From a virus, in IMG/VR virus record IMGVR_UViG_3300010391_000037, positions 1 through 26,385 of that record: DNA of 26,385 nucleotides; one strand, given 5' to 3'. Shown in pieces: positions 1-21,605 of this stretch. A program made the translations under genes and the position numbers. Below the pieces are notes generated by a model. The model did no database searches, had not been told where the DNA came from, and worked only from the letters and a program-made list of their open reading frames with translations. Each line of letters opens with the position of its first letter. Positions within the stretch are counted from its first letter, which is position 1.

Positions 1-224
1 ACCAGTTGCAGCCCGCCGCCACTTAGAAACACGAGGCTCCAGACCCACTCCGGCGCCACGGCTGCCATCTGCGAGGTGGCCCCGCCCGGATTGAATCGCG
101 TGATACCGGCCAGCAGGCAAACAGCCCACAGGAGCGCAATGGATGCGCTCACCGCCTCCAGCGTATCGGTGCGACTGAGCGCGGCCTGATACCTGAGTAG
201 CCGCTTATATAGTCCAAGCCACAT
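1..224 (-). CDS. Membrane protein, 3' part cut by window edge
   Basis: The reading frame is open from 224 to the window edge, giving about 74 residues without a stop. It begins MWLGLYKRLLRYQ and contains two hydrophobic stretches, around SIALLWAVCLLAGI (residues 29-42) and VWSLVFLSGGG (about 62-72), separated by a short polar loop. It lies 49 bases downstream of a holin-like gene at the end of the operon. A role in lysis or as an accessory membrane protein is therefore plausible but not shown. The ATG at 224 has AGGGGG about 6 bases upstream. In-frame ATGs at 248 and 260 are alternatives, and 248 is also preceded by a G-rich stretch. No family was recognised. Confidence 0.5.
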   Translation of the reverse strand, partial: MWLGLYKRLLRYQAALSRTDTLEAVSASIALLWAVCLLAGITRFNPGGATSQMAAVAPEWVWSLVFLSGGGLQL

Positions 225-273
225 ACTCGGCCCCCTGACTCTCTCCATGGTGGCCCCCATATCATGTGTGCGC

Positions 274-609
274 CTAGAGATTGAAAAGGCCCAGAACGGC
301 CTTACCGGCCGCTATTGTAGCGCTCTTGCCGTTTCTGATGGATTCGTACCCGAACACCGATAGCACCCAACCGCCGATGGCAAGGTCCACGAACTTATCG
401 GCGGCAAACGTTAGCCCCAGCGTCGCGCCCAGGGCCGCACCCAAGATAGCCAGGGGGGCAAGTACCAGGATGCAGACCAGCCCGTAGGCGGGACTCACGT
501 CGTCGCCCTTCACGAGCCAGGATTGCAAGAGCGGCTTTAGTGCGTACTGGAATACAGCCGAGGCGAACGCGGCCACCAGCGCCGTCGTCGTCAGTTGTCC
601 GGTTTCCAT
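274..609 (-). CDS. Putative holin-like small membrane protein
   Basis: This 111-residue protein has three hydrophobic segments, roughly residues 8-27, 42-66 and 71-88. A charged loop near VKGDD separates the first two and a short basic tail region contains RNGKSAT. Size, topology and position after the tail genes resemble phage holins, which permeabilise the host inner membrane at lysis. No specific holin family signature was recognised, so the call rests on topology and context. The start is well supported: TAAGGAGATAC lies directly before ATG 609, one of the strongest ribosome binding sites in the window. It begins 8 bases after the stop of the upstream gene. No endolysin gene is visible next to it. 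Confidence 0.5.
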   Translation of the reverse strand: METGQLTTTALVAAFASAVFQYALKPLLQSWLVKGDDVSPAYGLVCILVLAPLAILGAALGATLGLTFAADKFVDLAIGGWVLSVFGYESIRNGKSATIAAGKAVLGLFNL

Positions 610-617
610 GTATCTCC

Positions 618-905
618 TTACAGGTTTCTAACCTGAACCGTGATGGTGCGCTCGTCGGCCTCGCCATCAGAGCGCGTGATATGGTTCTTGGCCGTGTAAT
701 CCGTGTGGGCTACGCCGCCGGACAACTGCACCACGGCCACGCGGTTGCCAGGCCGGAGTGAGGCCCCCATTTTCGTAATGCCGGAGTCTACTGTCCAGGT
801 GCTGACGGTGATCGTCACGCCGGCCGGCAGGTTCTTCTGATCCCAGTCCACGCCAAACGTGCGATCTGCCCCTACGGCCTTCTCAAACGTCGGTATATCA
901 GCCAT
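618..905 (-). CDS. Small virion-associated beta-rich protein, unknown function
   Basis: This 95-residue protein has alternating beta-strand character: VDWDQKNLPAGVTITVSTWTV, then RVAVVQLSGGVAHTDYTAKN, ending DERTITVQVRNL. The pattern of a WxV strand followed by LSGG and an ITxSDGxxDERTI ending recurs in short proteins near phage tail genes. I take it as an Ig-like or accessory virion protein; the function is unknown. The frame stays open upstream, but that extension is low complexity and overlaps the upstream gene. ATG 905, with GGAGG a few bases before it, is the likely start. A nested palindromic repeat fills the space between this gene and the upstream one. Confidence 0.65.
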   Translation of the reverse strand: MADIPTFEKAVGADRTFGVDWDQKNLPAGVTITVSTWTVDSGITKMGASLRPGNRVAVVQLSGGVAHTDYTAKNHITRSDGEADERTITVQVRNL

Positions 906-940
906 GTTGCCTCCGTCCCCTCCGCCGGGGATGCTATACT

Positions 941-992
941 CGTGCCCACGCCACGTGTCCCCGCCCCGTGGCGGGGACGTGGCGTGGGCGTG
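941..992. repeat. Nested pair of 20-bp palindromes with 4-bp direct repeats
   Basis: The outer palindrome is 945-953 plus 982-988 with a central CGTG, which reconstitutes CCCACGCCACGTGGCGTGGG. It is bounded by CGTG at 941-944 and 989-992. The inner palindrome at 958-977 (TCCCCGCCCCGTGGCGGGGA, 8-bp arms) is bounded by CGTG at 954-957 and 978-981. These are copies of the centre of the outer palindrome. Removing the inner copy plus one CGTG restores a perfect 20-bp outer palindrome. The whole folds as a long GC hairpin in the gap between two genes. It is not followed by a T-tract on the transcribed strand, so it is a poor intrinsic terminator. Confidence 0.85.
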
Positions 993-1000
993 CGCTCTTT

Positions 1001-2623
1001 TCAGCGCCTCGCTAGGTAAATAAAGTCGTCTCCGGGAACGACGTAATCCAGGTCGTCCGCGGGCACCACAAAGGTAAAGTCGTCGACGGGCACAACGTAG
1101 GTATGCTCGGCGTCGGCGTAGAGCACCAGAGTTGCGACGAGGCAAACTCCGAAGACTTCCGCCGACGCGATGCTCACTACCACAATGGTCTGGGCGCCGG
1201 TAAGCGCAATAGTGGGAAGTCCCCACACTTCCGCGCTAACGACTCCCGCAGGCAAGATGAGAACCGCACCCGGCAATAGCGCTGCCAGCCCAAACGCCTC
1301 CGCGCTGGTAATCCCCGTGGGGCTGACCGTGACCGGGCCTGGCGTGAGTGCTGGTGTTCCGAAGGCCTCCGCGCTGCCAATGCCGGCGGGCGCGAGAGCA
1401 ACGCCTATAAACGCGGTGCCAAAGGTTTCACCACTGGCAATCCCGGAAGGGCTTACATTCACCGCCCCAGGAGTCAGGGCGGGTGTTCCCAAAGCCTCTG
1501 CACTGGCAATGCCTGTCGGGGTGATCGTCACGGCCCCCGGCGTCAATGCGGGCGTACCGAACGCTTCTCCTGTGGCTATACCCGTCGGCGATACCGTCAC
1601 AGCCCCAGGCGAGAGGGCTGGCGTGCCGAAGGCTTCTCCTGTGGCTATACCCGTCGGCGATACCGTCACCGCCCCAGGGGTGAGCGCCGGGGTCCCCAAC
1701 GCTCCCGCACTCGCAATGCCAGAGGGGGCCAGGGTAACCGCGCCCGGAGTAAGTACCGCCGTGCCAAATGCTTCAGCGCTGGCAATACCACTGGGAGAGA
1801 TGGTCTGTGCGCCGCCGCCCGCCGGTGGCTTCCCCACCACCATCTGAAAGCGCGGAACCCACAACAGGTCAAAGCGGGTGTCTGGGTCTACCTGGTGCTG
1901 GATTTCTGCCGCTGTCAGCGCGACGTTGTAGTACCGCACGTCATAGAAATGCTGGTCTTGGTTTAGCCAGCGGCCAATGTCAAACGGAGCCGTTGTATTG
2001 GCGAAAGAAGCGTCTGCGGCTGTCCCACTATCCCATGCCCAAGTCAATCTCCTGCCATTCAGATAAATCTGTGGAGTTCCTGCCGGAACCATGACAAAAG
2101 CACAATGGTAAAGAACACCCGTTACCAGATTAGCATCGGTGGACTCACCCGCACTATACAAAGCAGAGCCATCTGCATAGCCAAATGCTACGTATAACTC
2201 ATCGCCGTTCACCCAATGCGTTGCAATATCCCAACAGCGGTTATTACCCGTCGTTGACCACTTACCAATGATGCCATTGCTAATCGGCGCGTCAATGTAC
2301 TTCTGCCAACAGGTAACGGTGAATGGGTTTGCTCCTGGCTCCAGGAGCGCGTTGTCGGCTACGGTCACATGGCCGTCTGCGTTGTTTAAGTCAAGCGCAA
2401 ACCCCATCTCACTGGCGATGGGAGCCGCCGCGCCCAGGATTGAGCCATTCAGAACACCACTCTTACTGTATGGCCCCAGGTCATAGAGCGTGCCCTTCGC
2501 CGTCCGATTCAGCCGATGGTACATCGGCCACCAACCCACCAGGCCCCGATTCTGTATGGAATCGGGGCTACGGGCAAAGTCCTCTGGCGGCTTAGGGAAT
2601 CGCCACGCTCTATGCTGAGACAT
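1001..2623 (-). CDS. LamG-like tail/fibre protein with 23-residue repeats
   Basis: This 540-residue protein has three parts. Residues about 28-245 resemble a concanavalin A-like (LamG) sandwich: GLVGWWPMYHRL, then LDLNNADGHVTV, WDIATHW, IYLNGRRL, FDIGRWLNQDQHFYDVRYYN. That domain usually binds glycans. Residues about 273-500 hold about ten repeats of roughly 23 residues with core GIASAEAFGTPALTPGAV. The C-terminus has three short VVPxDD motifs (YVVPVDDF, FVVPADDL, YVVPGDDF). The protein is probably an adsorption or host-surface-binding component of the virion. Its ATG directly abuts the TAG of the upstream gene. It could instead be a decoration protein; virion location is inferred from context. 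Confidence 0.75.
   Translation of the reverse strand: MSQHRAWRFPKPPEDFARSPDSIQNRGLVGWWPMYHRLNRTAKGTLYDLGPYSKSGVLNGSILGAAAPIASEMGFALDLNNADGHVTVADNALLEPGANPFTVTCWQKYIDAPISNGIIGKWSTTGNNRCWDIATHWVNGDELYVAFGYADGSALYSAGESTDANLVTGVLYHCAFVMVPAGTPQIYLNGRRLTWAWDSGTAADASFANTTAPFDIGRWLNQDQHFYDVRYYNVALTAAEIQHQVDPDTRFDLLWVPRFQMVVGKPPAGGGAQTISPSGIASAEAFGTAVLTPGAVTLAPSGIASAGALGTPALTPGAVTVSPTGIATGEAFGTPALSPGAVTVSPTGIATGEAFGTPALTPGAVTITPTGIASAEALGTPALTPGAVNVSPSGIASGETFGTAFIGVALAPAGIGSAEAFGTPALTPGPVTVSPTGITSAEAFGLAALLPGAVLILPAGVVSAEVWGLPTIALTGAQTIVVVSIASAEVFGVCLVATLVLYADAEHTYVVPVDDFTFVVPADDLDYVVPGDDFIYLARR
1121..1807 (-). repeat. Tandem 69-bp repeats encoding GIASAEAFGTP units
   Basis: About ten in-frame units of roughly 69 bp encode the 23-residue repeats of the LamG-like protein. 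The units at about 1562-1599 and 1631-1668 share a 38-base identical stretch spaced exactly 69 bp apart, which indicates recent duplication. Outer units are more diverged, and one is shortened (GETFGTAFIGVAL). Copy number could vary by recombination. Confidence 0.85.
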
Positions 2624-3199
2624 CTACTGCAATTCCTGAACGATGGGGTCAAAGACAACGTGATGCTCTGCGCTATCGGTATGGAAAGTCGCGCCTGAAT
2701 TGTTCACAACCACCAGGCTACCATACCGCTCTGTTGGCATGAACACACCCACCTCGGCTACCTGTATCGTAGGAGTTGCCTGGGCGGTACAGACGAATGA
2801 GCCGATGAAGTCCAGTTGCTTCAACGACGCGGCCAGGTTAGAACTGTAACCCGCGTAGGCCGAATCTGCGCCGCTGACCGCACCGGCGTTGGCCGTGCCT
2901 GCTGTGGCAGATGGAGAAGGAGCCCAATACAGGTCTATTGTATTCCCCGCCGTAGGTGTGGCTCCTATCTCAAAGGCAGCCCGGACTTTGTAGGCAGCAG
3001 CGAACTTTGTGCCCAGGTCTACCTTTGTACTCTGGCGAGCCGCCCCGTTGGTCACACTCTCCAACAGGAGTTGCACCAGCGTCGGTGTAGCCTCGCGCAG
3101 GTCGTTGGCGGCTGTGGGTGCGAAGTCGGTAGCATCGCGGAGGCATATCTGCTCCGGTACGCCGTCCATGGGGGTGAGTAAAGTTTTGTTAGGAGACAT
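2624..3199 (-). CDS. Virion structural protein, unknown function
   Basis: This 191-residue protein starts MSPNKTLLTPMDGVPEQ and is beta-rich, with strands such as KVRAAFEIGATP, TIDLYWAPSPS, TIQVAEVGVFMP and GSLVVVNNSG. Proteins with the NTIDLYWAPSPS pattern occur near tail fibre genes of siphoviruses; the exact role is unknown. The start ATG at 3199 overlaps the preceding stop as TAATG and has AAGGCGG about 9 bases upstream, so I prefer it to a codon ten residues earlier. The stop abuts the LamG-like gene, consistent with co-translation of an adsorption or accessory tail set. Confidence 0.65.
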   Translation of the reverse strand: MSPNKTLLTPMDGVPEQICLRDATDFAPTAANDLREATPTLVQLLLESVTNGAARQSTKVDLGTKFAAAYKVRAAFEIGATPTAGNTIDLYWAPSPSATAGTANAGAVSGADSAYAGYSSNLAASLKQLDFIGSFVCTAQATPTIQVAEVGVFMPTERYGSLVVVNNSGATFHTDSAEHHVVFDPIVQELQ

Positions 3200-3612
3200 T
3201 ATTGTGCCGCCTTCGCCATAATAATCCAACCGACCTTGATTTCATCCCAGCCGAGTTCGGTGGCGCGGCTGATGGATTCATTGACCAGGGCGGCCAGGGC
3301 TGCAATTGTGGCGGAGCCCGCGCCGAAGATGGTAATAAACCGCGCCCGCGCCCGCTTGCCGGTGGATACGTAGACCGTGCCCATGTGAATCATATTCCAC
3401 ACTTCAGCCTGTAACGCATTGGTTAGGGCTGTGAACTCCGAAGCGATGGTCGCCTCGTAGATTTCGCTACCTTCTAGCGTGGCCCGTTCGCGCGTGCGGT
3501 TCTTGGTGTTGAGGCTCGCGGCTACCTGTGCATCCGTCATGCCCGCGTAGCCACGCCCCAGCGGGTCACTTGTGATTTCCGCTTTGAGTAAGAGCATATC
3601 CGGTTCGGTCAT
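3199..3612 (-). CDS. Conserved phage tail-region protein, unknown function
   Basis: This 137-residue protein has N-terminus MTEPDMLLLKAEITSDPLGRG followed by YAGMTDAQVAASLNTKNRTR. The DPLGRGYxGMTDxxVAxxLNxxNRxR pattern marks a widespread small phage protein found beside tail fibre and tube-like genes, with no settled function. The C-terminal half is helical (AALAALVNESISRATELGW). The protein starts at ATG 3612 with AAGGA and GGTGA upstream, and its TAA overlaps the next ATG by one base. It looks soluble, with no signal peptide. Assignment to the virion is inferred from position. Confidence 0.7.
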   Translation of the reverse strand: MTEPDMLLLKAEITSDPLGRGYAGMTDAQVAASLNTKNRTRERATLEGSEIYEATIASEFTALTNALQAEVWNMIHMGTVYVSTGKRARARFITIFGAGSATIAALAALVNESISRATELGWDEIKVGWIIMAKAAQ

Positions 3613-3628
3613 GTTTCACCGTCCTTGC

Positions 3629-4069
3629 TTACAACTTGAAGATGCGATTTGCCCCGTTGTCCCAGGTCACAGTAATATCACCCCCATTGGCCGTGATGGG
3701 CAAGCCGGTGGCTGTATCTATGAGGGCCACCAGGGGCGAGAGGGCATCGCTGGTGAGCGCCCGGTAAATGAGGATGTACTCAAAAGTGCCTGCCCCTACC
3801 GCCACGAACGTAATGTCGGCAGCATCGCAAACACCAGCAGCCGGGTCAGCAGGTACAACGACCACGCCATCGCCGAAACCCGTAGCCCCGCCGGCGCCGC
3901 CCTTCCGTGCACTGGTAGGTACATCATCCAGGAAATCGTGCGCTGCCAAATCCGGCGTATAGGTAGCGCTATCAACCAGGAAAGCCCGGAAGGTGTTGCC
4001 TCCGTTCTTCCACTGCAAGTCGCCCCGCGCGAACAGGTTGCGGGCGTTGTCGTATAATGCGTTTGCCAT
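3629..4069 (-). CDS. Conserved phage virion protein of the tail-fibre cluster
   Basis: This 146-residue protein starts MANALYDNARNLFARGDLQWKN and contains FRAFLVDSATYTPDLAAHDFLDDV, then a glycine-rich GGAGGATGFGDG turn and a beta-rich end, TVTWDNGANRIFKL. The motif of a short helix, then a DLxW segment, then RAxLVDxAxYTxxxxxHxFLxD, is common to small phage proteins in tail modules. These are often predicted to be virion components, but none is clearly characterised. The start ATG 4069 has AAAGGA upstream and the next gene follows after 16 bases. Confidence 0.65.
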   Translation of the reverse strand: MANALYDNARNLFARGDLQWKNGGNTFRAFLVDSATYTPDLAAHDFLDDVPTSARKGGAGGATGFGDGVVVVPADPAAGVCDAADITFVAVGAGTFEYILIYRALTSDALSPLVALIDTATGLPITANGGDITVTWDNGANRIFKL

Positions 4070-4087
4070 TATCTTCTGTCCTTTCTA

Positions 4088-4414
4088 TTACGTGCCCACG
4101 CCACGTGGCGTGGACGTGGTAGCCGGTGGCTGCGCGGCCCCGCCACCAGCCAGTAAGCGTTTGGCTTTCATTAGCCCGTTGACCTCGCCGCGTATGGCCT
4201 GCATCGCGTCCCGCGCCTCTTCCAGAAACTCGGTATACACCGTCACGTTGGCCTCTGCGGATTTCTGACTTTCCAACGCCTGTTGCAGGAGGCTATCTAT
4301 TATCTGCGTGGGGGTCATCGGCGCGGATGCGGTGGGTGGTTGTTCTGGTCTGGCGGATTGGGAGGGCAGATGTTCAGGCTCCGCCGGATCAGTCGGTTGG
4401 ATTGGTTTGGTCAT
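4088..4414 (-). CDS. Small proline-rich, coiled-coil protein
   Basis: This 108-residue protein has a proline-rich N-terminal third (PTDPAEPEHLPSQS and following). A central helical segment at about residues 34-88 (IIDSLLQQALESQKSAEANV, then EFLEEARDAMQAIRGEVNGL) is likely a coiled coil. The tail is Gly/Pro-rich. The final residues STPRGVGT are encoded by a 24-bp palindromic repeat insertion that keeps the frame and stop; without it the protein would end PPATT. ATG 4414 is chosen over GTG 4417 because GGAG lies 5 bases before the ATG but only 2 before the GTG. Function unknown; small coiled-coil proteins in this position may be chaperones or accessory fibre proteins. Confidence 0.6.
   Translation of the reverse strand: MTKPIQPTDPAEPEHLPSQSARPEQPPTASAPMTPTQIIDSLLQQALESQKSAEANVTVYTEFLEEARDAMQAIRGEVNGLMKAKRLLAGGGAAQPPATTSTPRGVGT
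4091..4118. repeat. 20-bp palindrome flanked by CGTG direct repeats
   Basis: The core is 4095-4114, CCCACGCCACGTGGCGTGGA, with a perfect 18-bp palindrome at 4096-4113. It is bounded by CGTG at 4091-4094 and 4115-4118. The 24-bp unit (core plus one CGTG) lies at the very 3' end of a coding sequence, just before its TAA. It contributes eight codons in frame. It shares its core with the copies at 941-992 and 21123-21150. Confidence 0.85.
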
Positions 4415-4448
4415 CACGTCTCCTTTTATTATCCAGTCTTATACTGGG

Positions 4449-4751
4449 TCAAGGTGTCGGCGTGGGCGTCGGCGTCGCGTAACTGTTGGGGAACCCACAG
4501 TTGCCCCACTGCGTGTTAGACCACGAGCCGGTCAGATCAGGGCTGCGCTTGTCCGAGTAGCCCGCCGTGTTGCCGTAGTCGCGACTGTCCTGTTCCGCCC
4601 CGGCCGCGTTATAGAGTTTAACCGTGCGCGTGCCGCTTGCCGTCGTCAGCGGCAAGGCCGTATCCGCCCGGAAGTACGCGTGCGCGCCCGGATAGACCAC
4701 CGCCCCGTAGGGCAGCGTATAGGTGTAGTTGGTGGAGCCAACGATGCTCAC
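4449..4751 (-). CDS. C-terminal half of a split lamin-tail domain
   Basis: This 100-residue frame starts at GTG 4751, which overlaps the TGA of the upstream gene (GTGA). The sequence YTLPYGAVVYPGAHAYFRAD, then TRTVKLYNAAGAEQDSRDYG, is the second half of a lamin-tail-domain fold. The first half, LRLNEVDYDP to QCIELYW, is the end of the upstream ORF. Reading this frame back across the junction gives AAERDQYYIVSIVGS, a sensible continuation. The two ORFs were therefore probably one coding sequence now separated by a -1 frame change near 4760-4785. The protein ends abruptly in a short Thr-Pro tail (TPTPTPTP), as if a linker lost its next domain. Independent translation by reinitiation is also possible. 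Confidence 0.6.
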   Translation of the reverse strand: MSIVGSTNYTYTLPYGAVVYPGAHAYFRADTALPLTTASGTRTVKLYNAAGAEQDSRDYGNTAGYSDKRSPDLTGSWSNTQWGNCGFPNSYATPTPTPTP

Positions 4752-7630
4752 GATGTAATACTGGTCACGCTCTGCTGCGCGGCCCCGCCCCAGTACAGTT
4801 CAATGCACTGGTCGCCTAACGTGACCTCACCGTCACCGTCATTGTCTATCGTCGGGTCGTAGTCCACTTCGTTCAGTCTCAGCGAGGAGAAAGGCGTCGC
4901 GGTGGGCGTATAGGTCGGCGTAAGCGTGGCCGTCGGCGTGCGCGTAATGGTCGGCGTCGGCGTGGCCGTCGCGGGCGTAGCCGTCGCGGTGGGTGTAACC
5001 GTCGGCGTTACCGTATAGGTTGGCGCGTACAACCGCGCCTCGTCCGTCGTCTGCCGCGTCACCACGATGGCAGTCGCGGTAGGCGTCGGTGTGACCGTAG
5101 GGGTCGGCGTTGGGTTCGTCCAGGCCAGCGAAAGGGAAGGCGGACTGCCCCCCGCGTCATCCAGTACTTCCGGGTCACGCGTCGTTGTCCCGCCAGACGC
5201 CCAGTAAACAATGACCACGAAACTATTGTCCCAACTCACGCCCGCCGTATCCAGCACCTCATTAAGCACGGTAGCGAAATCCGGCGTGGTATAGGTATTG
5301 CCCGCCGTCCACGCGCTGGGCGTGTAGGAGGCGGTCGTGGATGTGCGGGTGCGCTGCGATGGCTTGTTGGTCGTGCAGTCAAAGGTCACGGTGGTCGCGG
5401 TGTTTTGGCCCGCAATGGCGTCAACCATCGCTACGCTGGCCGCCGTGTTTGCCTTAAAGTCAATGGTAGCCGATGACAACTTGGCGGTACTGTTGGGACG
5501 GCTCACGCTGGTAAAGCGGTAGCCCGCGTAATAGATCTCGGAGCCGGAATAACCGAACTTCGCTTCTACCGTGGAGCAGGTCGCCCCCACGTCATAGGCA
5601 TCATCCGCGTTCGCGGCGGGCGTGTAGATCGCCGCCGCGTAGGTGGCCGTCGGCGTGACGGTGGGCGTCGGCGTGTTGGTAGGAGTCGGCGTATTGGTGG
5701 AGTAGGTCGTCGCCGTTGGTGTCGGTTGGTACTGCACTACCAATTTGGGCCGCTTGGCCGTGTCCAGGTTGCCTTTGCTCGCGAAGGCCCAACTGTCCTG
5801 TACCGCGCTATCATTGAAAGCGATGCGCACGCCATAGACCGGCGTACCGGCCACCACCTTCTGCACAAAGTCCAGGACGTTGATCTGCTTGGTCGCCGCC
5901 GGGGTCGCGTTGATGGAAACCGTCGCGATGGGCGTGCCCACGTCCGTCGTCCCCTTCGCGCCCGCCGTCTCCCAGTTAACCCCGCTGGCATACTGGTTCC
6001 AGGTCGCCCCGGCCTCCGTCCAGTCCTTGAGTACCGTCTCGGCCTTGATATTCCCTGTGCCTGCCGAACTTCCCACCGAGACCAGGTACAAATCCAGCGT
6101 GGCCGCCGTGATGGTCGTGTTGGCGGGCAAGTCCAGGCCGCAGAAGTCCAGGAGCATCGGTTGGTAGGAATCCGTCGCGTTGCCGCCCATCGTCACATTG
6201 TAGTTGCCGCCGTAGTTGTTGGTCGGGTTGTATTGGCTGAGGTGGGTATCCTCCATGCAGGTGTAGAGATTCACACCATAGATGTAGGTGACTGTAAGGG
6301 AGGGAGGCGTATTGGTTGGCGTCGGCGTCAGGGTCGGCGTCGGCGTGGGCGTCGGTTCAACGCCCGTCGCCTGGTATGCCCAACGCACGTAATCGGCCCA
6401 CATATCCTGCGCCAGGGTCGCGTTCTGCCAGCCGACGTATAGGCGGTTGGGGCGCGTGGCCCCGTTCAGCGTGTCAATCCCGCTTTGCCACAAGACCTGC
6501 GTCCCGTTCACCTTGAGCAGGATGTAACCCGCCGTGTCGTGGTAATAGACCTCCCACTCCAGGTTATACCAGATTCCCCCGCTCAGGGCCGCCATGCCAC
6601 TGTCAAAGTACGTGGTCGTGTTGGCGTAGTTATAGACGCTCAGTTTGTTGTCGGTGCGCAAGGTCGCGTACTGATGGTGCGTACCGCTCACCGATAAGAT
6701 CGCAAAGGCGGCGCTTTGGTCTACCGTAGCCGAGTAGCGGAACCACATCTGCACCTTGTTATAGTCGTCGCCGGTCGCGATGCCCTTATAGACAAAGCAG
6801 GTATCGGCGTTACTGGACGTCTTATCGCTCTGGTAAGAACCCGTGCCCTCGTTCTTGTTCGTAGTATCCAGCACCACGTCGCAGTTCGCGGGATTGGAAG
6901 CCGTCTTTGCCGTCCAGTTGCCCGGCACCGCTGCGTCATTAGTCTCTGAAAAGCCCCAGGTAGCCGCCGTGGGTGTCGGCGTCTTGGTGGGCGTGTTTGT
7001 TGGCGTCGGCGTCGGCGTGGCATCCCAGGTCACGTCCAGGATAGCCGCCTGCGCCGGGTAGGTGTCATAGAACTTAGGATCGTACTGCGTAGCCCCGGAG
7101 ACGTAGGTGGCGACGAGGGCGATGGTATTTGTCCAGCCTCCCTGCCCTACCACCTCATCTATGATGCTCTGGATGTCCGGGCTGGTGTAGGTCGTACCTG
7201 CCGTGAAGCCGGTTAAGGCCCAGTCCACGTAGGCCGTCGTCTTGGTGCGGCCCGATGGTTTGGCCGCCGAGGAGCCGCAACCGAAGGCGGCGGGACTGGC
7301 CGTCAACTCACCGTAGATACGTATCGTAAGGGCTGCACTGTTGGTCGTGTTCGCCACCAGTTTCAGGTAAGCCGCGCTCGCGCCGCTTGACCCCGCCGGT
7401 CTGGAAACCGACGTCCACCGCCAGCCCGCCGTAAGGTCCTCGCCGGATAGGTTGCCCACCTTGCTACTGACCGTCGTGCAGTTTGTGGTACGGTCATAGG
7501 CGTCATCAGTGTAGGCAGAGACGGAATACGCGGCGGCCCACACTCTTACAGGACGGTTGTTTCCCATCTGAGCCAAAAAGGCCAGCAAGATGAGGGCTAT
7601 CAGGATGACAGCAAAGCGCTTGACTTTCAT
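4748..7630 (-). CDS. Exported multidomain glycan-binding-like protein with Thr-Pro linkers
   Basis: This is a 960-residue protein. The N-terminus is a signal peptide: MKVKR, hydrophobic FAVILIALILLAFLA, then a likely cleavage after VWA. Domains in order: a DAYD domain (about 35-202, two conserved Cys), a ConA-like sandwich (225-421, paired Cys), a DNRLRE/CBM96-like beta-sandwich (448-634), a second DAYD domain (668-838), and the first half of a lamin-tail domain (916-960). Thr-Pro linkers join them. The DNRLRE match includes VLKDWTEAGATWNQY and YGVRIAFND. Such modules are typical of extracellular Chloroflexota proteins. No catalytic domain was recognised. ATG 7630 has AGGTG 5 bases upstream and is preferred over GTG 7636. 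The protein may be an exported surface-acting product rather than a virion part. Confidence 0.7.
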   Translation of the reverse strand: MKVKRFAVILIALILLAFLAQMGNNRPVRVWAAAYSVSAYTDDAYDRTTNCTTVSSKVGNLSGEDLTAGWRWTSVSRPAGSSGASAAYLKLVANTTNSAALTIRIYGELTASPAAFGCGSSAAKPSGRTKTTAYVDWALTGFTAGTTYTSPDIQSIIDEVVGQGGWTNTIALVATYVSGATQYDPKFYDTYPAQAAILDVTWDATPTPTPTNTPTKTPTPTAATWGFSETNDAAVPGNWTAKTASNPANCDVVLDTTNKNEGTGSYQSDKTSSNADTCFVYKGIATGDDYNKVQMWFRYSATVDQSAAFAILSVSGTHHQYATLRTDNKLSVYNYANTTTYFDSGMAALSGGIWYNLEWEVYYHDTAGYILLKVNGTQVLWQSGIDTLNGATRPNRLYVGWQNATLAQDMWADYVRWAYQATGVEPTPTPTPTLTPTPTNTPPSLTVTYIYGVNLYTCMEDTHLSQYNPTNNYGGNYNVTMGGNATDSYQPMLLDFCGLDLPANTTITAATLDLYLVSVGSSAGTGNIKAETVLKDWTEAGATWNQYASGVNWETAGAKGTTDVGTPIATVSINATPAATKQINVLDFVQKVVAGTPVYGVRIAFNDSAVQDSWAFASKGNLDTAKRPKLVVQYQPTPTATTYSTNTPTPTNTPTPTVTPTATYAAAIYTPAANADDAYDVGATCSTVEAKFGYSGSEIYYAGYRFTSVSRPNSTAKLSSATIDFKANTAASVAMVDAIAGQNTATTVTFDCTTNKPSQRTRTSTTASYTPSAWTAGNTYTTPDFATVLNEVLDTAGVSWDNSFVVIVYWASGGTTTRDPEVLDDAGGSPPSLSLAWTNPTPTPTVTPTPTATAIVVTRQTTDEARLYAPTYTVTPTVTPTATATPATATPTPTITRTPTATLTPTYTPTATPFSSLRLNEVDYDPTIDNDGDGEVTLGDQCIELYWGGAAQQSVTSITS
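4892..5117 (-). repeat. Thr-Pro linker repeats (GC-rich hexamer tracts)
   Basis: Tracts of ACGCCG/ACGCCC-type hexamers on the coding strand encode TPTxTPT linkers. Further tracts in the same gene lie near 5637-5730, 6308-6357 and 6967-7022, with a terminal one at 4452-4480. They join folded domains and are likely sites of recombination or misassembly. Confidence 0.8.
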
Positions 7631-7638
7631 GTTCACAC

Positions 7639-10600
7639 CTAACGCATTGTGTAAATTACGAAGGGCTTAAAACTAGAATACCGCCCACCGATGCGTACCA
7701 TGTCCGCAGATGCGGGATTCTGCAACCGTAGCAGCAGCCCGTAGTTGGCTGTCTGCCATTGCAGGGCCAGCGGGGTAATGGTCATCTGGATAAAGGCTCC
7801 TGCATCGGACACCTGATAGGAGGCATAAGGGTCGGGGTCGGTGTCCAGGTCGCCGTACGCGCCCGCCGTCTGCCAGTAAGCCCATGCCTCCGGCGGTTCT
7901 GCGCTGTGATACCACGCCCACCAGGTCGTGTACGCGCTAATCCAATTGCGCCGCGTCAAATAGACTTCCAGCACGGGGTCGGTAAAGTTACTGGCCTGGA
8001 CCGCAAACCGCACCTGGTCAAACCAGTAGTCCGAGACGATACTGTTGCTGCTGATTTGGCCCATGCTCGTCTGTGTGCCGGGGGCCGCCGAGTTGAGGGT
8101 GTCTATACCGGTCTGATAGACGTCCTCTTGCCCATCTACCAGCAGGCGATACCAACCTCCAGAATTAGCATGGTAGGCCGTGACCGTCACTTTATACCAG
8201 GTAGCCGCCGCGAGAGCCTCTGCCCCCGCGTAGGCGGTGCTGTTGCCGTAGTTGTACAACTGCAACTTGCCGTCTGAGCGCAGATTCAGGTAGTAGTCGT
8301 TGGCTGCACCAGAGCCAACAACCAGGGCTATACCATTGGAGGCGTCCAGCACGTCGTAGCGGAACCAGAACTGCGCCCTGGTATAGACCCCGCCCGCCAT
8401 GCCCGACTTCGTGACGTAGCAGGTCGTCGTGTTGTCGCTGCCCTTGTCGGCCTTGTAACTGCCCGTGCCCTGGTTGAAGATGACCGTATCCAGCACGATA
8501 TCGCAGTCGGTTGGGTTGGAGGCTGTCTTAGATGGCCACGTACCCGGCACCGCCGCGTCGTTGTTCTCAGAGAACGCCCAGGTCGGTTTTCCTTCCCAGT
8601 CCGAGACGTAGAGGTTCAAGACCGCCGCGTCCATGACGCCCGCAGGCACATTGAACAACAGGATGGCTTCGTCACCGGCCTGGATGCGGTTCGTGCCCTT
8701 CTGCAAGATATACACCGTGTCGGTGGGCAGGGCCGTCGCTGCGGGCGTGGACGTGCCGGGATTCGTGGTCGGCGTCGGCGTGACCGTGGGCGTCGGCGTG
8801 CTGACGGTGTACCAGGTCACTTCCAGGATGGCCGCCAAGTTGGAGTTGGTCTCGTAGTTGTAGGGCACGCGCTGACCGTTGGCCGATACGCCCTTGACCA
8901 GCATCACCAGGCTCCCATCCCAGGAGCCGCCCGCGTAGTCCAGGGCCTCATTGAGCGCCGAGGCGAAGTCGGGCGCCCAGTGCTCGTTTCCCGCTACCCA
9001 CGGTTCCGGCTGCCAGGCAGTGTAGGCCGTCGTGGTGGGCCGCGCGGATGGCTTGCCCGTGCCGCAGTCAAAGAGGGTTGTGGTGGAGGCCTTCTGCGCG
9101 TAGATGTTCAGCGTGATACTGTCACCGAGGGTCTCCTGGGCCACAAAATGCAGGAACGCGGTCTGCACGCGCGAGTTGGCGTCTGGTTTCGTGATACCGG
9201 AATACCTGAAGCCGGTCGTGATGTCCTCGCCCGGCACGCCGCCTATCTTGGCTGAAAGCGTGGTGCACCAGGACGTGCGGTCGTAGACGTCCGCCGCCGC
9301 GTTTGCCAGGTAGTAGGACTGTACGCCCGCGCTACCCGTTGGCCTGGGCGTCGGCGTGGGCGTGTTGGTTGGTGTCGGCGTCGGCGTCGCGGTAGGGCCG
9401 CCCGGCGTCCAGGTGGGCGTGCGCGTCGGCGTGCGGGTCGGCGTGGCCGATGGCGTCGTGGTCGGCGGGGTCGGCGTGAAGGTCGCCAGAGGCGCGCCGC
9501 CCTTGTTCGCGATGACCATGTGGATGTACTCGCCGCCTTGCGTTCCGCTGGACAGGGCATTGATGCGCAGGTCAAAGAAGTATTCGCCCCCGCTCCCCGG
9601 CATCGTCTTGGAACCAAAAACGTACTCACCGCCTAACAGTGCAAACTCCGAGCGCTTCCAATCGCCGCTATTTGTTTTTGTTACAGTACCGAGCGTTGTA
9701 ACTCCTGCGCCCGTCCAATACTGCACCGAGAAAGTGTCTGTACCCTGGTCAAGGTAGATGACGCTGATGTACACGTCGTACCCGTTCCCGCCCGGCCACC
9801 AGCCCTCCAGCAACGGGTCAACCGTCAGGTAGGCGCAGTTCGGAACCTTGCGGCTGTACGCGCTGAATTTGTTGACCTTGCCCGCCGCGCTTAACAGGTT
9901 CCCATACTCCGGCGAGATAATGGTCTTGTTGGGATCATCCGCATTGACGATGTACCAGACCGGCGTCGTCAGGCCGTCGCACGCGTCTGCGCCCATACCG
10001 GAGGGGGTGGTCGTGTCAATCTGGTCAAGCCACTGGAATAAGTTCTGGGCGCGCGTCAAGACACTCCCTCCCCAGTAGTCTTGATGGAAGGCCGTCCACG
10101 CCTCCGTGCTGGTGTCCGCGCGCCGGTTCGCCATCGGCAGCGTCACGCCCGTGCCGCCCGTCCACCAGATGCGCAGCGCGTTGTACCAGGAGGCCATGAT
10201 GCCACTCTGGTAGGGTTGCTCTGTCCATTGGCGCAGCAACCCGCAGCCGTCTATGCGCTGCCAGGCGCAGGTCAGGAGCATCCAGTAAGAGAACCATTCC
10301 TGCTTATAAACCGCCTGGCTGATTCCGCTTACTGCCGCCTCAGAGTAGATGGGGTGGGAGCGGCCTAGACAGCGCAGAGCATCGGCTAATTCCCCGTATT
10401 GAACGTAAGTGCAATCCTTGCGTTCCGTGTCCGCGCCGTAGGAGTATATCTGGTTCCAGGTATGGTTGTACCGTATGTTGTTCACGAAATAGCCGGGGTT
10501 CACCGTCTCGGTATAAAAGCCCCATTCGCTGCCGTAGGGTTGGGTGAGGATGTAGGAGACGATCATGTGACGTTCAATCGGGTCGGTAAAGTGCGGCGAG

Positions 10601-11316
10601 ATGATGTACAGCCGCTCCTTTCCATGCCCGTAGGTATTCCAGGCGTTTATGACCGCCTTGCCGTAATTCACCCAGGCAGTCTGGGCCGCCGTCGTGCCGC
10701 CCCACGCCGTCTTGTAGGCGTCGCCCTCCACGCCATCATCCGGGAACGCCTCGGAGTCCGCACCCAGTGCCGCCATGAGGATAACGTTAGGATTGTTCTG
10801 GTAGTGCGCGGCCAATTGCTGGATGAGCCAGGCTATTTCCGTCTGCAACCCGGAATTGGCGTAGTTTATCATCTGGAGACTGGGGTCAAGGGCCGACGTG
10901 ACGGGGTTGTACTCCGGGGCCACTGCCCAGTCCGGTGAACCATCATTGCAGTTGGTGGACTTGCGCAAGCCACCCGCGCACGCGCCCTGCCAGTAGGTCT
11001 GCTTGAGCATGACGGCCAACAGCACCTTGTTACCCGACGCGGTAACCCGGTCTATCGTTGCATCAATTCCCGCCAGGCTAAGGCCGCGCTTGGTCGGCTC
11101 TATGTCTTTCCAGTAGGGCCGTAGGTGAATGAACTCTATATTGGAGCGGTAACTGGCACTCTGCGCGTTGTTATCCGCCGCCGACGCTGACGACGTACCC
11201 ATGCCCGCCTTATAGCCCGTCAAACCCGTTCCGCCCGGCACGACGGCCTTTGCGGGCGAAGCGTCACGCGAAAGGGCCAGGAATAGCAACGCCAAAAACA
11301 GCATTAGTTTTTTCAT
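7639..11316 (-). CDS. Exported TIM-barrel glycoside hydrolase-like protein with binding domains
   Basis: This 1225-residue protein begins with a signal peptide: MKKLMLFLALLFLALSRDAS, likely cleaved after AKA. Residues about 40-450 look like a (beta/alpha)8 glycosidase-like domain. Candidate acidic residues are Glu189 in ALGADSEAFP and Glu326 in PIYSEAAVSG, spaced as in clan GH-A enzymes. A beta-sandwich follows (about 500-605, GYDVYISVIYLDQGTD, EYIHMVIANKGG), then a Thr-Pro linker (612-661), a DAYD domain (666-835), a second linker, and a DNRLRE-like domain (866-1225) interrupted by a ConA-like domain at 911-1114. The likely role is cleavage or binding of host surface polysaccharide. ATG 11316 overlaps the upstream TGA and places the signal peptide first. 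The hydrolase assignment is inference from fold-level pattern. Confidence 0.65.
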   Translation of the reverse strand: MKKLMLFLALLFLALSRDASPAKAVVPGGTGLTGYKAGMGTSSASAADNNAQSASYRSNIEFIHLRPYWKDIEPTKRGLSLAGIDATIDRVTASGNKVLLAVMLKQTYWQGACAGGLRKSTNCNDGSPDWAVAPEYNPVTSALDPSLQMINYANSGLQTEIAWLIQQLAAHYQNNPNVILMAALGADSEAFPDDGVEGDAYKTAWGGTTAAQTAWVNYGKAVINAWNTYGHGKERLYIISPHFTDPIERHMIVSYILTQPYGSEWGFYTETVNPGYFVNNIRYNHTWNQIYSYGADTERKDCTYVQYGELADALRCLGRSHPIYSEAAVSGISQAVYKQEWFSYWMLLTCAWQRIDGCGLLRQWTEQPYQSGIMASWYNALRIWWTGGTGVTLPMANRRADTSTEAWTAFHQDYWGGSVLTRAQNLFQWLDQIDTTTPSGMGADACDGLTTPVWYIVNADDPNKTIISPEYGNLLSAAGKVNKFSAYSRKVPNCAYLTVDPLLEGWWPGGNGYDVYISVIYLDQGTDTFSVQYWTGAGVTTLGTVTKTNSGDWKRSEFALLGGEYVFGSKTMPGSGGEYFFDLRINALSSGTQGGEYIHMVIANKGGAPLATFTPTPPTTTPSATPTRTPTRTPTWTPGGPTATPTPTPTNTPTPTPRPTGSAGVQSYYLANAAADVYDRTSWCTTLSAKIGGVPGEDITTGFRYSGITKPDANSRVQTAFLHFVAQETLGDSITLNIYAQKASTTTLFDCGTGKPSARPTTTAYTAWQPEPWVAGNEHWAPDFASALNEALDYAGGSWDGSLVMLVKGVSANGQRVPYNYETNSNLAAILEVTWYTVSTPTPTVTPTPTTNPGTSTPAATALPTDTVYILQKGTNRIQAGDEAILLFNVPAGVMDAAVLNLYVSDWEGKPTWAFSENNDAAVPGTWPSKTASNPTDCDIVLDTVIFNQGTGSYKADKGSDNTTTCYVTKSGMAGGVYTRAQFWFRYDVLDASNGIALVVGSGAANDYYLNLRSDGKLQLYNYGNSTAYAGAEALAAATWYKVTVTAYHANSGGWYRLLVDGQEDVYQTGIDTLNSAAPGTQTSMGQISSNSIVSDYWFDQVRFAVQASNFTDPVLEVYLTRRNWISAYTTWWAWYHSAEPPEAWAYWQTAGAYGDLDTDPDPYASYQVSDAGAFIQMTITPLALQWQTANYGLLLRLQNPASADMVRIGGRYSSFKPFVIYTMR
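9340..9480 (-). repeat. Thr-Pro linker repeat in the glycosidase-like gene
   Basis: A low-complexity tract encodes about 47 residues of TPTP, TRTPTRTPTW and TPTNTPTPTP type between the catalytic-like part and the DAYD domain. A shorter tract lies near 8761-8810. The composition matches linkers of exported Chloroflexota proteins. Confidence 0.8.
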
Positions 11317-12326
11317 GGCATCGGCAACTCCGTCGTCAGGGCTGCGTAGTACCACGTCCCGCTCACCTTCACGGCCAGGCGTGGGTTGCCGGGGTCGGTC
11401 TGGTCATCCACGCCTATCTGATAAACCTTTGTCGTACCGGAGCGGTCAAGACCAATAGCCGCGGCAACGGCATAAGTAGTGTTAAGCCCCGCCCCAAACT
11501 GGCCCGCATCCAGGCCGTCCAGGGTCGCCGGTGGCTTAAACGCGCCCAGGCCCAAGTCCAAGCCGTAGTTGGTGTTCATCTGCCACCAACTGAGACCCTG
11601 TGCCTGCGTAAAGTAAAGGCCGGGCAGATAAACACCCTCAAACCCCGATGCGGTCAGGTTCACCCCGCCCGCATTTGACCTGGTGAGCAGGAGAAACATA
11701 TTGTGCTGGATGTAACCGCCCGCGATGCTGTGGAAGCCTAGCCCCACCTCCGCAAAGTCATTGAGGCCATCACCTATGTCTGCCGTCAGGTAGGAGGAGC
11801 GTGACCCACCCGCCGTTCCTCCCACTACGTTGTAAGTCACCTGGGACAGGATGGAGTCGTAGGTGGCCCTGTCTGCGTTATACCAAGTTACGCCCCGGCG
11901 CAGAGTGGCGGGGGATGGAATGGAAGCGATGTCATCTACTACGTTGGCAGCCATCGTCAGGCCGTCGGCGTTCATCCAGGCGTCGTTATTGGTTCCCCAC
12001 ACGAAACGCCCATTGGGATAATCCCAGTAGCCCTGACGGATCTCGCCGGTAGCGGCGGTATAACGCCAGAACTCAAAACCGCGCGTCACGCCGCTATGGT
12101 TGGGCGGCGCGTACGTGCTCCACCAGGGGGAAGCCGGTTGCAGGTTCCACGCGTAGAGGCCGCTCCGCTGCCCGGAATTGTATGCCTGGCCTGCCAGCCG
12201 CAAGGCGCCGCCCTGCATTTCCCCCATCTGAGCATTGATTTGCGCCCATTCCCCGCTCAAGGTCAGCCGGTTTACGTTCAGTTCGCCGATGATGACCTTC
12301 GCCGCGATGTCCAGGTAGTAGGCCAT
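11313..12326 (-). CDS. Tail fibre / receptor-binding-like protein, C-terminal part
   Basis: This 337-residue protein starts MAYYLDIAAKVIIGELNVNR. After a short helical N-terminus it is aromatic and glycine-rich beta sequence (GFEFWRYTAATGEIRQGYWD, YLPGLYFTQAQGLSWWQMN, ending VSGTWYYAALTTELPMP). The likely role is a distal fibre or receptor-binding domain. The ORF overlaps the upstream fibre gene by 49 bases. Reading its frame upstream of the ATG gives QGEAQGK, which fits as a continuation of the upstream protein better than that protein's own arginine-rich ending. The pair may therefore be one interrupted gene. ATG 12326 has AGGG 4 bases upstream, so separate initiation is also possible. The TGA overlaps the next start as ATGA. 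Confidence 0.65.
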   Translation of the reverse strand: MAYYLDIAAKVIIGELNVNRLTLSGEWAQINAQMGEMQGGALRLAGQAYNSGQRSGLYAWNLQPASPWWSTYAPPNHSGVTRGFEFWRYTAATGEIRQGYWDYPNGRFVWGTNNDAWMNADGLTMAANVVDDIASIPSPATLRRGVTWYNADRATYDSILSQVTYNVVGGTAGGSRSSYLTADIGDGLNDFAEVGLGFHSIAGGYIQHNMFLLLTRSNAGGVNLTASGFEGVYLPGLYFTQAQGLSWWQMNTNYGLDLGLGAFKPPATLDGLDAGQFGAGLNTTYAVAAAIGLDRSGTTKVYQIGVDDQTDPGNPRLAVKVSGTWYYAALTTELPMP

Positions 12327-21112: not shown

Positions 21113-21176
21113 TTAGGTACTCCGTATCCACGCCACGTGGCGTGGACGTAGTAGGTGTACTCACCCTGGTAGCAGC
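21113..21176 (-). repeat. Leader repeat copy 1, split by a palindrome
   Basis: On the coding strand this spans the end of the gp10-like gene, the stop TGA, TACACCTACTACG, the palindromic insertion, then GAGTACCT before the terminator start. Apart from the 24-bp insertion and a few substitutions it matches 21569-21605. It supplies the GGAG ribosome binding site of the next gene. Confidence 0.8.
21123..21150. repeat. 20-bp palindrome flanked by CGTA direct repeats
   Basis: The core at 21127-21146 is a perfect 20-bp palindrome, TCCACGCCACGTGGCGTGGA, bounded by CGTA at 21123-21126 and 21147-21150. The homologous leader at 21577-21580 has a single CGTA and no palindrome, so it represents an empty site. 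This locus gives the clearest evidence that the element was inserted with a 4-bp duplication. Confidence 0.9.
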
Positions 21177-21568
21177 CTTTCCATCGCGCTGATGAACGGT
21201 TGCCGCGCTTCCTCTGTGGCCGGCACGAACGCGGGCCGGGCCGCAACGTGCGCCCCGCCGAACTCCAACACCGGCGCGTACTCCTGGGGCGTGCTGATGA
21301 TCCCGGTCAGCCCATCATTCTCAAAGGTGGAGGCGACGCTATTGATTAAGGCTCCCATGTCCACCGCGGGCGCTTCACCGGGCGCGCTGGCAGTGTGGGA
21401 AACACTCTTGCGCACGTACGCCCGCCCATGCTTTGGCTCGGCCATTTTCGTCTTGATCCGGCCCTCAATCCAGAAAGTTGTGACTCCGACGATGCGCCGG
21501 GCGTTGCCGCGTGCTTCCTGCGACAGTTTCGGGAAGTCGTCAAAGATGATCTTGATCTCGTCTGTCAT
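21161..21568 (-). CDS. HK97 gp10-like head-tail/tail completion protein
   Basis: This 135-residue protein reads MTDEIKIIFDDFPKLSQEAR, then AEPKHGRAYVRKSVSHTASA, PGEAPAVDMGALINSVAST, and YAPVLEFGGAHVAARPAFVP. The motif order GRxYxR, SAPGEAPAxDxGxLxxS, YAxxLEFGxxxxxxRPAFxPA is characteristic of the HK97 gp10 family, which acts at the head-tail junction or in tail completion. Length fits the family. ATG 21568 has GGAG 5 bases upstream in the repeated leader, so it is preferred to upstream codons. It lies between the head-closure and terminator genes, as expected. Confidence 0.85.
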   Translation of the reverse strand: MTDEIKIIFDDFPKLSQEARGNARRIVGVTTFWIEGRIKTKMAEPKHGRAYVRKSVSHTASAPGEAPAVDMGALINSVASTFENDGLTGIISTPQEYAPVLEFGGAHVAARPAFVPATEEARQPFISAMERLLPG

Positions 21569-21605
21569 AGGTACTCCGTAGTAGGTGTATTCACCCTCGC
21601 AGCAA
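21569..21605 (-). repeat. Leader repeat copy 2, uninterrupted
   Basis: This leader holds the end of the head-closure gene, its TGA, and the run to GGAGTACCT directly before ATG 21568. It carries one CGTA where the sister leader at 21113-21176 carries CGTA, palindrome, CGTA. About 28 bases around the junction are shared, with one mismatch. Confidence 0.8.

Follow-up and report, generated by a model that had tools for sequence, protein, structure and literature searches.

A 20-bp palindrome with matching YACG flanks at gene junctions of a tailed phage is a probable very small mobile repeat

We describe a 20-bp palindrome that lies four times, at three loci, at gene junctions of a tailed phage, each copy between two identical YACG tetranucleotides. 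It is probably a very small mobile palindromic repeat of the REP/SDR-like kind, inserted at YACG with a 4-bp target duplication and moved in trans. The sequence itself shows dispersed copies of one palindrome, 4-bp repeats matched to each site, an empty twin of one locus and the nesting of one copy in another; mobility in trans is what we infer. Short palindromic repeats are widespread, and the question of their movement has long stood open, in part since a clean-ended insertion is rarely caught. Matching flanks in four copies, one empty twin and one nested copy define a likely mobile unit, its target and its product, and the unit yields predictions i.e. 24-bp steps, YACG targets and targets in hairpin loops. 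It is well defined in structure and works like the SDRs, REPs and GC clusters; its mechanism is a proposal.

The window, i.e. the whole stretch of DNA that was analysed, is a 26,385-bp viral record in which PHROGs and Pfam scans revealed a tailed-phage structural module lying entirely on the minus strand (head morphogenesis, scaffold, major head protein, neck and tail completion, major tail, tail fibre-like and minor tail genes). By the gene list of this analysis 647 of the 26385 bases (∼2.5% of the window) are non-coding, and each of the three loci falls at a gene junction. Locus 1 is inside a 95-base intergenic gap, locus 2 comes directly before a stop codon, and locus 3 sits between the stop of gene 21161-21568 and the GGAG that belongs to the following gene, which is tail completion gp17-like. 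Together they hold four insertions, with a nested pair at locus 1 and one copy at each of the others (Table 1). On the gene strand all four units follow the formula YACG-YCCMCGCC-ACGK-GGCGKGGR-YACG, with the same YACG on both sides, i.e. a 20-bp palindrome with an 8-bp stem and a 4-base ACGK loop, making 24 bp net with the 4-bp repeat. The direct repeats match in every copy, being CACG three times (for the outer copy of locus 1 once the inner one is set aside) and TACG once, and vary between loci by one base only (C or T). An earlier note on this DNA had suggested surveying element lengths for multiples of 24, and in the window the net sizes added at the three loci were indeed 24, 24 and 48 bp.

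Table 1. Positions of the palindromic units, the empty twin junction and the coding sequence at locus 2.
Feature	Position	Strand	Gene-strand copy	Description
Locus 1, outer unit	941..992	-	CACG-CCCACGCCACGTGGCGTGGG-CACG	CACG repeats 941-944 and 989-992; perfect 20-bp palindrome split by nested unit
Locus 1, inner unit	954..981	-	CACG-TCCCCGCCACGGGGCGGGGA-CACG	Placed within the outer palindrome's loop, whose CACG it repeats
Locus 2	4091..4118	-	CACG-TCCACGCCACGTGGCGTGGG-CACG	CACG repeats 4091-4094 and 4115-4118 (CGTG on +); 20-bp palindrome 4095-4114; 24 bp net, in frame
Locus 3	21123..21150	-	TACG-TCCACGCCACGTGGCGTGGA-TACG	TACG repeats around perfect 20-bp palindrome
Empty twin of locus 3	21570..21595	-		One mismatch in 26, single TACG (21577-21580), without the 24-bp unit
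Small coding sequence	4088..4417	-		109 aa; last 8 residues, STPRGVGT, added by the unit; no homologue found

The best evidence for insertion is the empty twin of locus 3, a paralogous junction in the same molecule rather than an orthologous site of another phage. The filled junction, that of locus 3, is GGTGAGTACACCTACTACG-[TCCACGCCACGTGGCGTGGATACG]-GAGTACC and its twin is GGTGAATACACCTACTACGGAGTACC; apart from one base, only the 24-bp unit sets them apart, as the fixed 24-bp inserted element proposed in the earlier note would have it. With the inserted unit set aside, the adjacent junctions at 21570-21595 and 21117-21165 (minus strand) have in common GGGTGARTACACCTACTACGGAGTACCTA (stop codon, spacer and GGAG), which is a duplicated translation-start cassette. 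The junction motif of locus 3 was absent from 86 fetched related loci at up to 6 mismatches in 23. The twin, which only this one locus has, by itself shows a difference and not a direction, and an empty form could also arise if the repeats recombined and the unit was lost; insertion is the simpler reading because of the direct repeats.

At locus 1, what remains once the inner 24 bp are taken out is CACG-CCCACGCCACGTGGCGTGGG-CACG, where a perfect 20-bp palindrome has CACG repeats of its own, and the CACG repeated by the inner unit is exactly that contained in the outer loop. Locus 1 is one unit within the loop of another, giving a longer hairpin. The 52-bp stretch folds on the gene strand as one long hairpin (-45.8 kcal/mol, z -5.9).

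We propose that the 20-bp hairpin would insert at YACG sites at gene junctions of the tailed phage, leaving a 4-bp duplication (24 bp net), and that a host or other phage enzyme would recognise the hairpin, copy it and join it at YACG. The enzyme is placed in trans because 20 bp cannot encode one and no transposase is seen in the fragment: the Y1 transposase family PF01797 (Y1_Tnp) had no match in the 26-kb record, and neither the PHROGs scan of 20 window proteins nor the Pfam scan of 17 gave a transposase family, although the record may be a fragment and the enzyme could lie elsewhere. Recognition would probably be as folded single-stranded DNA during replication. Ordinary DDE transposases pair two ends in double-stranded DNA, for which a 20-bp unit would leave little room; recognition of a folded single strand is likelier, as happens with REP elements and IS200/IS605 enzymes (PMC8266576). 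The gene strand carries 337 YACG sites, 14 of which touch a gap or a stop (several of these created by the units themselves); copies in gene interiors may have been lost by selection or never made, so that survivors would be those between genes or at a stop codon. As a by-product the hairpin may add RNA structure at the junctions.

To our knowledge IS200/IS605-type enzymes do not leave target duplications, so that YACG would with them be a carried tag, or else the joining reaction would be a different one. A unit carrying its own YACG and inserting beside a YACG without target duplication would fit nearly as well as true duplication, and the two read alike here because the direct repeats give one T/C variant only. 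More tentatively, the hairpin could be a complete non-autonomous phage transposon that is read as folded DNA, makes a true 4-bp YACG duplication, nests in itself via its own loop and keeps reading frames by its 24-bp step; we hold this fuller version to be possible, short of likely.

It is unlikely that the unit is a REP-like element of an HUH (Y1) single-strand transposase such as RAYT, in which case the mobile part would be YACG plus hairpin (24 nt), placed 3' of a YACG target, and the repeat would be the element's own tag. REP elements, as described in the available parts of PMC3733652 and PMC8266576, are GTAG- or CGTC-tagged palindromes of 20-40 bp at gene ends and inside genes, some of them inserted inside other palindromes (T. 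roseum GTAG-23), and those of the CGTC type lack a dedicated transposase. The stem of 8 and loop of 4 found in the window are the sizes reported for CGTC-1 REPs (available part of PMC3733652), and IS200/IS605-type enzymes use tetranucleotides 5' of the palindrome (available part of PMC8266576). CGTC can be read across the repeat and the start of the palindrome in three of the four copies, and GTAG follows the unit on the plus strand at loci 2 and 3, although this is the 3' side, does not extend to locus 1 and is also seen at the empty twin. Directly 5' of the hairpin, where a GTAG REP or RAYT would have it, GTAG is absent on both strands in all four copies. The features given for CGTC REPs in the available part of PMC3733652 are an unpaired CGTC tag, a stem of 8-9, a loop of 4-5, A-T first and second stem pairs and a CCA tail, whereas the first pairs of the window unit are Y-R then C-G, CGTC occurs only across the repeat (CGCC in the remaining copy) and the CCA tail is absent. 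Also against a carried tag, its T/C variant agrees with the target at locus 3, and no Y1 transposase was found in the window. The terms 'target site' and 'duplication' each have 0 occurrences in the available part of PMC3733652; the window unit differs from the REPs in its few copies and in its direct repeats on both sides. As the tag features fail on both counts, we do not file the unit under GTAG or CGTC REPs.

Among other known systems, the small dispersed repeats (SDRs) of Nostoc and other cyanobacteria are reportedly dispersed, hairpin-forming sequences of ∼21-27 bp, inserted in each other and in genes, and have no known enzyme. The likeness to the window unit lies in small dispersed hairpins inserted in each other, whereas the sequences are not known to be related, and the window unit is in a phage, has a 4-bp direct repeat and is matched by an empty twin on its own molecule. 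PMC3116915 cites the SDR name. The palindromic GC clusters of yeast mitochondrial DNA are GC-rich, have a putative short target-site duplication, are present or absent at homologous sites and merge into larger palindromes (available part of PMC4478555). They thus resemble the window unit in palindrome, short duplication, filled and empty sites and combining units, but are 42 nt long (main family), use an AG target and are mitochondrial, and we claim no sequence relation. The mycobacteriophage elements MPME1/2 are very small mobile elements recognised via empty sites in relatives, MPME1 having 439 bp, inverted-repeat ends and a 6-bp addition at one end (available part of PMC3029335); both these and the window unit are very small and reside in phage genomes, the latter being about twenty times smaller than MPME1 and having no coding room. 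A search by title and start of abstract, with most subscription journals outside its scope, found no description of such hairpin units in phages, which is weak evidence of absence.

The hairpins might instead be fixed, non-mobile functional structures at gene junctions, such as a transcription attenuator, an RNA processing site or a protein-binding site. The position of all three loci and their good folding, strongest at locus 1, would agree with this, but the twin junction does without the unit, and a binding site would leave the exact 4-bp repeats and the nesting unexplained, making such a function improbable. Furthermore, the advantage of loci 2 and 3 over shuffles in folding is only moderate (locus 2, z -1.9 on the gene strand and -3.7 on the other; locus 3, z -3.3 and -2.2, respectively). 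As terminators the hairpins fare no better: loci 1 and 2 were not listed in a terminator scan of 1-5000, inspection of the sequence after locus 3 found no run of T on either strand, and no Rfam family was found for the hairpins. Promoters (1-5000 scan), tRNA and known RNA families were also considered as identities of the units and gave nothing fitting. Across the four copies the stem pairing holds in 32/32 cells and two pairs are changed on both sides; as support for the mobile unit this covariation is weak, being reached by 77 of 500 shuffles with only four sequences to compare.

Chance palindromes or an assembly artefact are a very remote prospect. Palindrome length alone is ordinary, as the 13 window hairpins in this size class fall inside the 8-23 seen over 30 shuffles. 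However, the family pattern, a degenerate 27-mer (ACGNCCNCGCCNCGNGGCGNGGNNACG), matched three times in the window and not once in each of 100 dinucleotide shuffles, this count leaving out the outer copy of locus 1, which is readable only with the nested 24 bp set aside. Direct repeats of 4 bp at a distance of 20 bp are found at 274 of 26357 window positions (∼1%), and such repeats flank 3/3 directly readable copies, and the fourth too once the nested copy is set aside; on pattern and flanks together we reject chance palindromes. The fragment is a single assembled contig, as an artefact would allow, but no two copies would be expected to differ, as they do here, had one stretch been mis-joined. 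As a control, the same palindrome core was found in 29 stretches of other viral contigs, several of them near-identical so that the rows are not all independent, and a direct repeat of at least 3 bp was present at 0/28 with readable flanks (the flank of L115, 7 bases from its contig end, was unread). The flanking repeats therefore go with the units of the window and not with such palindromes in general.

Locus 2 reads CGTG-CCCACGCCACGTGGCGTGGA-CGTG on the plus strand, at the 3' end of the small coding sequence, exactly as the earlier note had described. The minus-strand frame ends in PPATTSTPRGVGT followed by the stop, and when the 24 bp are removed its end becomes CTACCACGTAATAG, i.e. PPATT at the same TAA, confirming that the unit adds STPRGVGT. 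That these residues are a conserved C-terminal protein feature, the DNA match being secondary, is scarcely credible even though the frame is kept and the stop used, because like DNA persists untranslated at two places outside the gene list (intergenic at locus 1, and between the stop codon and the ribosome-binding site at locus 3), and no homologue was found that would show conservation; it is the DNA that is repeated rather than the peptide. The search for homologues of the 4088-4417 protein included frames upstream of the 3629-4069 homologue, compared in 20 of 21 loci (one was without) with a best E of 2.1, and as none was found orthologous empty sites of locus 2 are not to be had.

The earlier note had also argued that a fixed 24-bp size, by keeping the reading frame, lets such elements spread through dense operons with little harm. 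As stated this was not supported, since only one of the four insertions is in frame, at the last codon, and all loci are at junctions. Because the three loci are at gene junctions and non-coding DNA is scarce, survival of copies seems to depend on position, and tolerance of position accounts for it at least as well as frame keeping. Frame protection by the 24-bp step is offered as an idea, drawn from the single C-terminal case of locus 2, and a bolder extension would have ribosomes skip the locus 2 hairpin, leaving the first ACG codon and landing on the second. The high density that the earlier note read from three loci stands for this window (three loci with four insertions, locus 1 being nested) but did not carry over to the other records, 0/75 of which has a copy. 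These were searched for the 20-mer within 3 mismatches and comprise 75 related or comparison records (50 + 25; 52 viral via the head protein, 21 via the 3629-4069 protein and 2 bacterial genomes).

Other searches for members of the family gave similar results. Exact scans of viral contigs with five patterns returned 0, 0, 0, 11 and 29 stretches and no further member; the third of these patterns fits all three loci, the second matches only the inner unit of locus 1, and none of the 11 stretches has a complete stem with such repeats. One pattern scan of genome contigs, with a narrow pattern fitting only the inner unit of locus 1, gave 0 matches, and phage and plasmid collections gave chance-level matches only (E 5 or more). 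In samples of 299 and 296 genomes, 15 and 24 respectively had matches, all with 1-2 mismatches and at most 2 per genome, and the reversed-pattern control was similar; these genomes represent the phyla to which the records of L037 (Rhodocyclaceae contig) and L038 (Dietzia contig) belong, and have little bearing on the true host. Our searches of viral, genome, phage and plasmid sequences thus turned up the element in no other genome, and we make no claim of spread between genomes. The closest relatives have 69% identity in the head protein and ∼51% over the whole 3629-4069 protein, and as none is close enough no relative shows an orthologous empty site. The 3629-4069 protein has only 2 genome relatives (45-51% identity), too distant for naming a host. 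Against phages the window DNA gave only a 1% match, to Pseudomonas phages and within gene 3629-4069, and the DNA of the head region had no match to phages.

We also counted loose 20-bp palindromes with 4-bp repeats (7 or 8 of 8 pairs) across fetched loci totalling 1.05 Mb, leaving out the pieces of the window itself (L001-L004) and keeping near-duplicate contigs, and found 14 at length 20 and 1-8 at the other lengths from 16 to 32. This excess is not taken as evidence because coding repeats favour spans in multiples of 3, and a general class of such palindromes in related phages was rejected since the 14 cases are mostly imperfect and unrelated, several lying in duplicate contigs. One of the 14, in a relative with 62% head-protein identity, is a 28-bp perfect palindrome, CATG-AGCACCGCCGCGGCGGTGCT-CATG (L045:10261-10288), with the 20 plus 4 geometry and a different sequence. 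Two similar viral contigs (L117:1550-1569 and L123:5929-5948) hold the perfect palindrome TCCCCGCCACGTGGCGGGGA without flanking direct repeats. Also among the 14 is a likely terminator of a related phage, a strong hairpin with a T run after it (L044:6909-6936).

Two further features of the window concern its proteins. The region 4449-11355 encodes long proteins with TPTPTP-like linkers, and there are seven such stretches in the window; we take these to be associated with surface proteins of Chloroflexota, a possible host lead rather than a test. Within the minor tail protein gene 1001-2623, positions 1563-1700 form a repeat with a period of 69 bp and more than 22 identical bases, and homologues of the minor tail protein align in many shifted registers, so that it is a repeat-built tail protein.
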